A stretch of DNA of 64,000 nt, taken from NCBI RefSeq assembly GCF_900638335.1, contig NZ_LR134508.1, positions 310,001 to 374,000 of the forward strand, given 5' to 3'. The notes under the pieces are model-generated. The model was given only the letters and a program-made list of their open reading frames with translations, did no database searches and was not told where the DNA came from. This document shows, one piece after another, positions 24,170 to 29,062 of this stretch (position 1 is the first letter of the stretch; the number at the start of each line of letters is the position of its first letter). The stretch is from Campylobacter lari (lineage in GTDB: Bacteria; Campylobacterota; Campylobacteria; Campylobacterales; Campylobacteraceae). The position numbers and the translations under genes were made by a program.

Positions 24170-25099
24170 ATGCATAGAGTTATACTAGCTTTTTTAGCCT
24201 GTCTTAACTTTCTATTTGCTCAAGAAAATTTTGAAGTTAAAAATACTCAAATTTGGGATGTGCAAAGAGTGATGAATATAGAAAGTTATCAAAATTTTGG
24301 TGCTTTGTGGACTAAACTACAAGGTGAGTATATTGCAAGTGCTGTTTTGATTATACTTATAGTGGTTATTTCAGCTTTTGCTTTGCATTATATGGTTATA
24401 GGTCCAAAGAAATTTTCTCATGATGGTAAGAAAATTTATGCTTTTTCGGTATTTGAAAGATTGTTTCATTTTGTAGCGGCAATTTCTTGGATTATCCTTG
24501 TACCGACCGGACTTATTATGATTTTTGGATCATACTTTGGTGGTGGATTCTTTGTAAGAATGTGTAAAAACTTACATGGTATTGCTACTATTTTATTTAT
24601 CATTTCTATTATTCCTATGCTTTTGTGTTGGATTAAAAGAATGCTTCCTGCAAGCTATGATTTAAGATGGATGATGATAGTAGGTGGATATTTAAGCAAA
24701 GAGAAAAAGCCTGTGCCTGCGGGTAAGTTTAACTTTGGTCAAAAATCTTGGTATTATATAGCTGTTTTTGGTGGATTTTTGATGATAATCACCGGAGCGT
24801 TTATGTTTTTCCTTGATTTTAATTCTACTTCTTTACAGTCTATTTTTGGAATTTCTCATATAGATATTTTAAGAGCTTCAGCTATCATCCATAATATTTT
24901 GGGTATTTTATGTGCAGTATTTTTTGCTATTCATATTTATATGGCTGTATTTGCTATTAAAGGAAGTATCCATTCTATGATTAGTGGTTATAAAGAAGAA
25001 GAGGAAGTTTATATTTTACATTCTTATTGGTATAAAGAATTAAGCGATAAAAAACAAATCAATCCATCATTTACTTATGATTCTAAAACAAAATTTTAA
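24170..25099 (+). CDS. fdhC: Formate dehydrogenase cytochrome b subunit
   Basis: This 309-residue membrane di-haem cytochrome b (gamma) subunit takes electrons from FdhAB and reduces menaquinone. It has a cleavable-looking signal (LAFLACLNFLFAQ), then hydrophobic spans near 58-80, 102-125, 140-165, 200-220 and 240-265. Candidate haem histidines are in FERLFHFVAAISW, KNLHGIATILF and ASAIIHNILG...AIHIYM. In C. jejuni fdhC follows fdhB; here it lies upstream of the chaperone and fdhA, split from the catalytic subunits. Confidence 0.9.
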   Translation: MHRVILAFLACLNFLFAQENFEVKNTQIWDVQRVMNIESYQNFGALWTKLQGEYIASAVLIILIVVISAFALHYMVIGPKKFSHDGKKIYAFSVFERLFHFVAAISWIILVPTGLIMIFGSYFGGGFFVRMCKNLHGIATILFIISIIPMLLCWIKRMLPASYDLRWMMIVGGYLSKEKKPVPAGKFNFGQKSWYYIAVFGGFLMIITGAFMFFLDFNSTSLQSIFGISHIDILRASAIIHNILGILCAVFFAIHIYMAVFAIKGSIHSMISGYKEEEEVYILHSYWYKELSDKKQINPSFTYDSKTKF

Positions 25100-25121
25100 A
25101 ATCTCACTTGATTTTTTTAAA

Positions 25122-25159
25122 TTTTCCTTGTTATAATCAAATAAAAATAACAAGGAAAA
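25122..25159 (+). promoter_or_regulatory. RBS-sequestering hairpin overlapping the chaperone promoter
   Basis: TTTTCCTTGTTAT (25122-25134) and its perfect complement (25147-25159) form a 13-bp stem with a 12-base loop. The second arm contains the AAGGA ribosome site of the gene starting at 25163. A TATAAT box at 25132-25137 would start RNA near 25144, after the first arm. RNA from this promoter therefore leaves the ribosome site free, while read-through RNA from fdhC would hide it. Confidence 0.6.
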
Positions 25160-25162
25160 CTA

Positions 25163-25843
25163 ATGATACAAGATATTGATCTTTCGCGTAAATATTTTTA
25201 TGAATTTTTTTCAAAAGCTTTTAATTTTATTGATGAAAAAGAGTTTAAAATTTGGCATGAACAAGTTTTAGTTTTAGCTCAAAGCCCTTTAGATGATAGC
25301 CTAAAACCTGATTTTGAAAAACTTAGTGCATGTGATTTTGCAAGTTTTAAAGAAGAGCAAAATGCTGTATTTTTTGATTTTTCTTATGTGAATGTACCTA
25401 TTAGCGCTTCTTTTTATGATGAGGGTAGAGATGATGGTAAAATGAAACTTCAAGCTTGTGAAATCATTAGAAAAACCAAATTTAGAAAAAAAGAAGATTG
25501 TAGACAAAGCGAAGATGAATTTGGCTTTTTGTTTGCTTTTATGGCAAGTATTATTGAACATGATTTAAAAATCGCACAACAATTATTTCGTTTTGTGATA
25601 AACCCTGTAGTAGATGAGTTTATAGAAAAATTACAAATCCATAAAAACTCAAATTTTTACATTGCTATAGCTAATATTATGAAAGTATTTTTTGCAAATG
25701 AAAGGGCTTATTTAGAAGTACAAGCACCTATAAAAAAAGAAGGTAAAAGTATTGCAGATGAGGCTTTACAAAGACTTCCTTATGAACCAAGACTTCCTAC
25801 CAAATTTAGTAAAACAAATATAGAAGAGCTTAGCAAATTATAA
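25163..25843 (+). CDS. TorD-family chaperone for formate dehydrogenase
   Basis: This 226-residue, mostly helical, soluble protein matches the TorD/DmsD chaperone family in length and in position next to a Tat-exported molybdoenzyme. The second half (QSEDEFGFLFAFMASIIEHDL...FVINPVVDEFIEKLQ...NFYIAIANIMKVFFANERAYL) shows the family pattern of an acidic/hydrophobic EF.F...M..L block followed by a helix bundle. Such chaperones hold the apo-enzyme, bind its Tat signal and delay export until the cofactor is in place. It corresponds to C. jejuni Cj1514c. Its ribosome site is inside a hairpin described separately. Confidence 0.78.
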   Translation: MIQDIDLSRKYFYEFFSKAFNFIDEKEFKIWHEQVLVLAQSPLDDSLKPDFEKLSACDFASFKEEQNAVFFDFSYVNVPISASFYDEGRDDGKMKLQACEIIRKTKFRKKEDCRQSEDEFGFLFAFMASIIEHDLKIAQQLFRFVINPVVDEFIEKLQIHKNSNFYIAIANIMKVFFANERAYLEVQAPIKKEGKSIADEALQRLPYEPRLPTKFSKTNIEELSKL

Positions 25844-25848
25844 AAATT

Positions 25849-25878
25849 AATATGTATTTTGTTACCAAAATACATATT
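25849..25878. repeat. 12-bp inverted repeat after the chaperone gene
   Basis: AATATGTATTTT and AAAATACATATT form a perfect 12-bp stem around GTTACC, starting 5 bases after the stop. No T-run follows, so it is either a weak terminator or an operator for the fdh promoter 65 bases downstream. Confidence 0.55.
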
Positions 25879-25942
25879 ATCAAAATCATCTTTTTATGAA
25901 AATAGAAATTAAATAAAATCTTAAGTGAAAATATGCAAAAGT

Positions 25943-26239: not shown

Positions 26240-29062
26240 ATGGCATTAGCAAGAAGAAATTTTCTTAAGCTTGCTGGTATTGCTGGTCTTGGAAGCGCGG
26301 CTTTTGGTAGTGAAAATAAAGCCATTAGAGCTGCAAGTGAACAAGAAGTAGCAAATCCTTATCCAGATTCTAAGATTGTTAGAACAATCTGTAGTATCTG
26401 TAGTGCAGGCTGTGGAATTAAAGCAGAAGTGCAAGATGGAGTTTGGGTGCGTCAAGAAAACGCTATAGAACATCCTATTTCTCAAGGATCACACTGCTGT
26501 AAAGGGATAGATCAAATCGATCTTACTAAATCAAAACAGCGTATTAAATATCCTATGAAAAAAGAAAATGGCAAATGGGTGCGTTTAACTTGGGAACAAG
26601 CTATTAACGAAATTGGCGATAAAATGCTTGAAATCCGTAAGGAAAATGGACCTGATAGCGTTATGTTTTTAGGTTCGGCTAAATTTAATAACCAACAAGC
26701 TTATTATTTTAGAAAATTTGCAGCATTTTGGGGTACTAATAATATAGACCACGTTGCTAGAATTTGACACAGCGCAACAGTCGCCGGTGTGGCGAATACA
26801 TGGGGTTATGGCGCTATGACAAATCATTTTGGTGATGTGACTAAACACTCAAAAATGATGATTATTTTTGGTGCAAATACTGCTGTGGCAAATCCTATTG
26901 GATTTAAACACTTATTGCAAGCAAAAGATCGTAATAATGCTAAATTAGTAGTTGTAGATCCTGTATTTACAAAAACTGCAGTGCATGCTGATGAATATGT
27001 GAGAATTCGTCCAGGTACAGATATAGCTTTAGTTTATGGTATGCTTCATTTAATCTTCAAAAACGGTTGGGAAGATAAAGAATTAATCAAAACTAGAACC
27101 TATGGAGTTGAAGAAATAAAAGCAGAGGCTGCTAAATGGACTCCTGAAGTTGTAGAAGATGTAACAGGTGTTCCGGCTACTCAACTTGAAAAAATTACAA
27201 GAATGCTAGCTACAATTAAACCTGCTACGCTATTTTGGGCTTTAGGTATTACTCAGCACTCAGTAGGTAGTTCTAATACAAGAATTCTAGCTATCTTACA
27301 ACTCGTTCTTGGTAATATAGGCAAACCAGGCGCAGGAACAAACATCATCAGAGGTCATGATAATGTTCAAGGTGCTACTGATATGGGTTGTTTGGCTGAT
27401 ACTTTACCAGCTTATTATGGACTTGATGATAATGCTTGGAATCATTTTTCTAATGTATGGAATGTTGAAAGAGAGTATTTAAATTCAAGATTTTATTCTA
27501 AAGAATGGATGCATGAAAAAGGCTTTTCACTAGCAAAATGGTGGCAAGGTGTTTTACATGAAGAAAAAACTTATTCAAACTCACCTATCCGTGTACTTTG
27601 GGTGCAAGGAACGGGTATTACTTCTATGGCACATACGGTAAAAATTCAAGAAGCACTTAAAAAACTTGATATGATCGTAATTGCTGAGCCTTTTGTAAAT
27701 GAAGTAGCAGTTTTAGCAGATCGTCCAGATGGTATTTATATTATTCCTGCTTCAACCCAATTTGAAACAGAAGGTTATGTAACAGCGACTAATCGTGCTA
27801 TGCAATGGCGTTCTCAAGTAGTAAAACCAATTTATGAAAGTAAAGAAGACCAAGAGATTATGTTTGCTTTTGCTAAAAAATTTGGTTTTTATAAAGAATA
27901 CACTCGTGGTATGAAAATGGAATTAAAAGATCATAAACTTGTACAAACAAGAGATGATAATGATGATAATTTCATATGGCCTGATGATGCCACAAGAGAA
28001 ATGAGTAATGGTCTTTTAAGTATAGGCTTAAGAGGTATTTCAGCTGAGCGTCTAAGAAAACACCAGCAAAATTGGGAACATTTTGATCCTGATACTCAAA
28101 GAGGTATTGGTGGTGAAGTTAAAGGCGAATATTATGGCTTACCTTGGCCTTGTTGGGATAAACAACACCCAGGCACTTCTATCATGTGGAACACAGATAT
28201 TCCTTATGAAGAAGGTGGTATGGGCTTTAGAAATCGCTTTGGTTTAGAACATAATGGACATTCTCAATTAGCAGATGAAACTTTTACTCCAAAAGGATGT
28301 AAAGTTAAAGGTGGCTACCCACAAATTACTAAAGAAAATATCGAAAAAGTGTTTAATATCAAACTAAGCGATAAAGAAAAAGAATTAATGGGCGCTAGCT
28401 GGAGCACAGATATTTCAGGTATTATCTTAGAAAAATGTAGAGAAAAAAGTGCTTGTTGTTTAGGTAATGCAAGAGCTAGAATGAAAGTTTGGGAATTTGC
28501 TGATCCTATTCCACTACATAGAGAGCCTATTCACTCGCCTCGTTGGGATTTGGTTAAAAAATATCCTACTTGGGGCGATCAAGAGAAAAACTTTAGGGTT
28601 GAGAGTAAATTTATTAGCGAGCAACAAAAAACAGATTGGAGTAAAGAGTTTCCAACTATTATTTCAAGTATGCGTTTAGTAAATTTAAGCGGTGCGGGTA
28701 TGCTTGAGAGAACTAGTAAATATCTTGCAGCTATTACACCTGAGATGTTTGCTAATGTGCACCCTGAACTTGCTTTAAAATATGGTATAAATGATGGCGA
28801 TATGATGTGGATTCATTCACCACAAGGCACCAAGATTAAAGTAAAATGTGTGCATAATCATTCAGTTACACCAGATAGAATTTGCTTGCCTTATAACTTT
28901 GCGGGTATTATGCAAGGTGTGGATTTAAGTTATAATTATCCTGAAGGTACTAAACCTTATACTATAGGGGAAAGTTCTAATACGGTTACTAACTATGGTT
29001 TTGATATAAATACGCAAATTTCTGAGTTTAATGCAGGACTTTGCAGACTTGAAAAGGCTTAA
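26240..29062 (+). CDS. fdhA: Formate dehydrogenase catalytic subunit, selenoprotein
   Basis: This periplasmic molybdopterin (bis-MGD) enzyme has 940 residues including selenocysteine. The UGA at 26765-26767 is codon 176 and lies in frame between ...DHVARI and HSATVAGVANTWG, the exact Sec/Cys position of the family, with the conserved His just after it. A Tat signal (RRNFLKLAGIAG) is at 5-16. A [4Fe-4S] site follows at C51, C54, C58 and C86/C87. It oxidises formate to CO2, with electrons going through FdhB and FdhC to menaquinone. Without Sec recoding the gene looks like two ORFs, and the second would be wrongly started at GTG 26789. Confidence 0.97.
26765..26795 (+). promoter_or_regulatory. 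Selenocysteine UGA and SECIS hairpin of fdhA
   Basis: The UGA (26765-26767) is followed 13 bases later by TCGCC-GGTGT-GGCGA (26781-26795), a 5-bp G+C-rich stem with a GU-containing loop. This is the size, spacing and loop type that bacterial SelB recognises. Confidence 0.85.

Follow-up and report, generated by a model that had tools for sequence, protein, structure and literature searches.

Read-through RNA of the IS10/Tn10 transposase gene contains an inverted repeat which masks the ribosome site and so protects the gene from outside transcription. A similar arrangement is described in bacteriophage T4, where the ribosome site of gene e (lysozyme), soc, 49 and I-TevI is caught in a helix in long RNAs from upstream promoters, while a promoter near the 5' strand of this helix yields short RNAs that lack the strand and are translated; for gene e, the lysozyme obtained from the long RNA is reduced 100-fold (PMC3014915). 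The mechanism itself is thus already known from these four genes. We searched the open-licence literature for an earlier report of such a leader in Campylobacter and found none.

The gap between fdhC and the chaperone gene fdhM of Campylobacter lari resembles T4 gene e in two respects: the Shine-Dalgarno AAGGA stands in the second arm of a helix predicted to be stable in the long RNA (10.15 kcal/mol), and a promoter, recognised by its sequence consensus, is placed in such a way that its RNA would lack the 5' strand. It differs in that T4 relies on a phage late promoter, for timing, whereas a sigma70-type promoter precedes a chromosomal metabolic gene here, and in that the effect was measured in T4 but is predicted here. 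Like IS10/Tn10, the locus has an inverted repeat which would hide the ribosome site in read-through RNA; however, the IS10/Tn10 repeat is part of the end of a mobile element, and no mobile element was seen here. We consider it likely that the hairpin is a silencer of read-through RNA and that fdhM is expressed from its own promoter. Sequence, predicted energies and comparison between genomes support a gene e-type silencer at a chromosomal metabolic gene as the most economical account.

The fdhC-fdhM gap

The window, i.e., the whole stretch of 64,000 nucleotides that was analysed, corresponds to positions 310001-374000 of a 1.54-Mb single-contig genome; positions are those of the window unless given as genome positions. 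The cluster reads, in order, nspC-like, fdhC, TorD-like chaperone gene, small twin-arginine gene (from 26020), fdhA, fdhB, modE-like, yedF and selD-like, the names nspC, fdhA, fdhB and selD being assigned from sequence and position without a profile. The first gene of interest, fdhC (24170-25099, + strand), encodes the cytochrome b (gamma) subunit of formate dehydrogenase (TIGR01583, 266.6 bits for a cutoff of 115.85, and PF01292) and is the presumed source of the read-through RNA. The TorD/DmsD-like chaperone gene (25163-25843, + strand) is of the FdhM type, since its product matches the PF02613 (Nitrate_red_del) profile at 25.3 bits (cutoff 22.2) and its neighbours fdhC, the twin-arginine gene and fdhA place it in an fdh neighbourhood. 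In a named genome collection, the chaperone is closest to an entry labelled 'C. jejuni isolate_S4' (98%) and to C. volucris (87%). In C. jejuni, fdhM is cj1514c and is needed for formate dehydrogenase (PMC4148689); it is likewise a TorD-family chaperone gene of an fdh cluster. Unlike the present locus, the more distant species (fdhM 26-30% identical) have nspC upstream in place of fdhC, and the hairpin was not seen there.

Two further features of the cluster deserve mention. An in-frame TGA (26765-26767) splits fdhA, and the stretch 26762-26820 matches SECIS_3 with 30.9 bits, short of the gathering score (63). This is what a selenocysteine formate dehydrogenase followed by yedF and a selD-like gene would be expected to show. 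Just 3' of the fdhM stop, a perfect 14-bp inverted repeat, ATGTATTTTGTTACCAAAATACAT (25848-25879), which is the sole intergenic copy in the genome, precedes the twin-arginine gene and fdhA; it is operator-like or a 3'-end hairpin, and is retained in C. volucris with its centre changed from GTTACC to GGTAAC.

Both genes lie on the same strand, 63 nt apart (25099 to 25163), and the terminator scan returned nothing terminator-like between them. Twenty-two nucleotides separate the fdhC stop from the first arm of the hairpin, so that a terminating ribosome is unlikely to melt the stem. Arm 1, TTTTCCTTGTTAT (25122-25134, + strand), is the complement of the ribosome site and would be present in read-through RNA only; it is followed by a 12-nt loop (25135-25146, + strand) and by arm 2, ATAACAAGGAAAA (25147-25159, + strand). 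The inverted-repeat scan gave arms of 13 nt each with 100% complementarity and with AAGGA (around 25152-25156) inside arm 2, exactly as the original prediction had it; AAGGA stands six bases 5' of the ATG (25163). Upstream of the TATAAT at 25132-25137, and separated from it by a single base, stands TG, which makes an extended -10, TGTTATAAT (25129-25137, + strand), straddling the junction of arm 1 with the loop: the first three bases of the TATAAT are paired, and the loop contains its remainder together with the predicted transcription start (about 25144, from spacing). By position, RNA begun there would contain nothing of arm 1; the placement that had been proposed for this promoter is therefore correct, and the -10 proves to be of the extended type. 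The possibility that the repeat is an intrinsic terminator of fdhC was rejected, as arm 2 is followed by CTAATG without a U-run and the repeat is absent from the terminator scan.

In C. jejuni, dRNA-seq found the extended -10 consensus at about 89% of promoters, with no clear -35 box (PMC3656092). TGTTATAAT is an exact match to this sigma70 consensus, and it is from its sequence that the promoter is predicted here. Within the present genome, 35 genes have TGNTATAAT between -45 and -13, versus 2.0 expected from its density, i.e., an enrichment of about 17-fold.

Polymerase coming from fdhC would copy both arms, the stem would cover the Shine-Dalgarno and the chaperone would be poorly translated from the long RNA. 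Polymerase starting at the extended -10 within the hairpin would produce a leader of about 19 nt devoid of arm 1 and accessible to ribosomes. With the short RNA open and the long RNA shut, the level of fdhM would be set by its own promoter regardless of upstream events. In this silencer model we infer where transcription starts, that it runs in from fdhC, that the long RNA is poorly translated and what the physiological use is.

The folding energies point in the same direction. Opening AAGGA at 37 °C is predicted to cost 10.15 kcal/mol in RNA from fdhC versus 0.65 in RNA from 25144 (at 42 °C, 9.52 versus 0.55), and shifting the start by 2 nt leaves the predicted cost nearly unchanged. The predicted fold of the 101-nt region reaches -15.7 kcal/mol (z = -2.76), and the short RNA shows no more tendency to fold than shuffled sequence does (z +1.24). 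A plain 13-bp repeat is not rare, other perfect repeats of 13-15 bp having been found by the scan in this AT-rich window; the unusual feature is the match to the ribosome site combined with a -10, rather than the repeat itself. In a chance model covering the 1066 genes whose Shine-Dalgarno could be recognised, the ribosome-site region of each was combined with upstream sequence from a different gene; perfect ribosome-site stems of at least 10 bp were expected about 1.0 time and observed 10 times, and those of at least 13 bp were expected about 0.1 time per genome and observed 4 times. Among the stems observed, that of fdhM shares third place in length.

Ribosome-site hairpins across the genome

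We then scored stems at ribosome sites permitting G-U pairs and mismatches, with a threshold score of 26. Where a same-strand neighbour ends 35-129 nt upstream, 15 stems reach this score versus 3.75 expected (0/200 shuffles), and the enrichment is restricted to this setting: gaps below 35 nt contain none for 1.5 expected, and genes with a divergent or other neighbour have 7 versus 3.5 (fraction 0.075), falling to 2 versus 1.7 at score 28. When the target was slid along the gap, the excess was greatest at and just before the Shine-Dalgarno. The 35-129 nt class was picked once the highest-scoring stems of this genome were known; its bins were then left as they were for 800 kb (half) of a second genome (G007), which gave 4 stems versus 0.92 at score 26 (0/200) and 6 versus 1.78 at score 24 (1/200). 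Genes were called by a simple script and some starts are wrong, e.g., at genome position 1291182. The enrichment in same-strand gaps suggests that the fdhM hairpin may be one of a class.

We had predicted that promoters would concentrate inside strong ribosome-site hairpins. This prediction failed and counts against the silencer reading: promoters are not commoner there (6 of 23) than in other same-strand gaps (23 of 56 and 26 of 87), and some of these hairpins must thus have another role or act on genes that are co-transcribed. Outside the window, other genes that follow a same-strand neighbour and have a strong ribosome-site hairpin are located at genome positions 1035719, 82108, 806074, 1042413, 877535 and 1034186; the loop contains a -10-like element at 82108, 806074, 877535 and 1042413. 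The hairpins at 743266, 257459, 236925, 115903 and 1464459 have loops of 4-5 nt with no promoter inside, and would have another way of gating translation in co-transcribed genes.

For four of the hairpins other than that of fdhM, the pairing of cognate arms was compared by permutation with that of arms swapped between species. Cognate arms pair better in the gene family at 806074, which may be DUF2920 and which has TATAAT in the loop (0.0008), at 1035719, an FAD-type protein (0.007), and at 1042413, a membrane protein whose hairpin loop contains TGCTATGAT (0.007); the value is 0.058 for the DNA glycosylase at 82108. These results are signs of pairing maintained through sequence change. It is tempting to hypothesize that ribosome-site hairpins in same-strand gaps of about 35-130 nt widely silence read-through RNA at chromosomal genes of Campylobacter, as a translational insulator replacing terminators in a compact genome, and that fdhM is one of perhaps ten such cases; we advance this broader idea tentatively and regard it as somewhat less likely than not.

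The hairpin in related genomes

None of the 26 arm positions varies across 13 genomes of the lari group, against 29 of the 38 fourfold sites of fdhM, and the structure is kept in 14 lari-group loci, L002 included. Base-by-base compensation is absent at this locus within the group, the arms being invariant. Three species (L016-L018) have a 2-nt insertion between the -10 and arm 2, which results in a 14-bp stem with a loop still of 12 nt. In L015 a different same-strand cytochrome operon replaces fdhC upstream, and the sequence departs from that of the other genomes until roughly the edge of arm 1; the hairpin stays intact behind this operon, which argues that the module belongs to fdhM and not to fdhC. 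As the module can thus sit behind cytochrome genes unrelated to fdhC, the earlier suggestion that it uncouples chaperone synthesis from that of cytochrome b is too specific.

Campylobacter sp. TTU_617 (L004), whose fdhM is 60% identical, has TGCTATAAT overlapping AATTTCCTAAA-ATTAG-TTTAGGAAATT, an unrelated sequence of the same geometry. This hairpin (z -5.46) has predicted opening costs of 13.0 kcal/mol in the long RNA versus 2.6 in the short one, and RNA from its promoter would again be devoid of most of arm 1. Since arm 1 of TTU_617 is on the opposite side of the -10 hexamer, the two hairpins are probably not the same by descent, and exchanging arms between the lari-group and TTU_617 lineages halves the stem score. 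TTU_617 seemingly has two formate dehydrogenase clusters (L004 1-1523 and 4118-5677) with fdhC-fdhM between them. In C. volucris (L003, L019, L020), L021 and L023, the fdhC-fdhM gap is short and both the hairpin and a clear promoter of such kind are absent.

Altogether, the consensus promoter, the folding energies, the conservation, the insertion that keeps the stem, the persistence in L015 and the independent hairpin of TTU_617 support the silencer, and with it the structural part of the gating interpretation in the original prediction. On the other side, close relatives manage without the hairpin, and constraint on the promoter and on the Shine-Dalgarno could account for much of the arm invariance.

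Other explanations and implications

This last point leads to the foremost alternative, improbable in our view, namely that an extended -10 and a Shine-Dalgarno are complementary by accident and that ordinary constraint has frozen the coincidence, each being conserved for its own sake. The overlap of the -10 with arm 1, the invariance of the arms without compensating substitutions in the lari group and the lack of promoter enrichment in hairpin loops genome-wide are all compatible with it; however, perfect stems of such length are hardly expected by chance even once per genome, the TTTTCC of arm 1 is invariant without being part of the -10, the insertion retains and even lengthens the stem, TTU_617 has a non-homologous hairpin of identical geometry, and the enrichment of the class depends on the same-strand setting. 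The hairpin could also serve the upstream message, as an RNase cut site or 3'-end stabiliser that parts the fdhC and fdhM RNAs, the masking of the ribosome site being incidental. We find this unlikely: the concentration of such hairpins in same-strand gaps would be in line with it, but the enrichment peaks on the Shine-Dalgarno and not elsewhere in the gap, the module stays with fdhM despite the change of upstream gene, and no U-run follows arm 2.

A DNA operator bound by a protein and overlapping the promoter is very unlikely. The palindrome does span the -10, and CTTGTTAT...ATAACAAG (window 25127-25154, spacing 12) recurs at genome positions 115872-115891 with a spacing of 4; but these two copies are the only ones, their spacing differs and both lie at a Shine-Dalgarno, the TTU_617 arms keep the geometry with another sequence, and a symmetric operator need not match a ribosome site. 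With one other similar palindrome in the genome, a shared operator was rejected. Finally, although the structure hides the Shine-Dalgarno, a conditional switch (thermometer, sRNA or ligand) opening the hairpin in read-through RNA is highly improbable, since the internal promoter makes opening unnecessary, the opening cost barely drops from 37 to 42 °C, which led us to reject a thermometer, and no Rfam family matches the hairpin (the SECIS_3-like match in fdhA being the only one), on which ground a known RNA family or riboswitch was rejected too.

Should the read-through silencer hold true, genes adjoining on one strand would need no terminator to be expressed independently, and calling operons from RNA continuity alone would be misleading. 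Recurring use at bacterial chromosomal genes would turn into a general insulation device an arrangement established so far in phage T4. As regards formate respiration, the supply of the chaperone would be set by its own promoter and not by fdhC.
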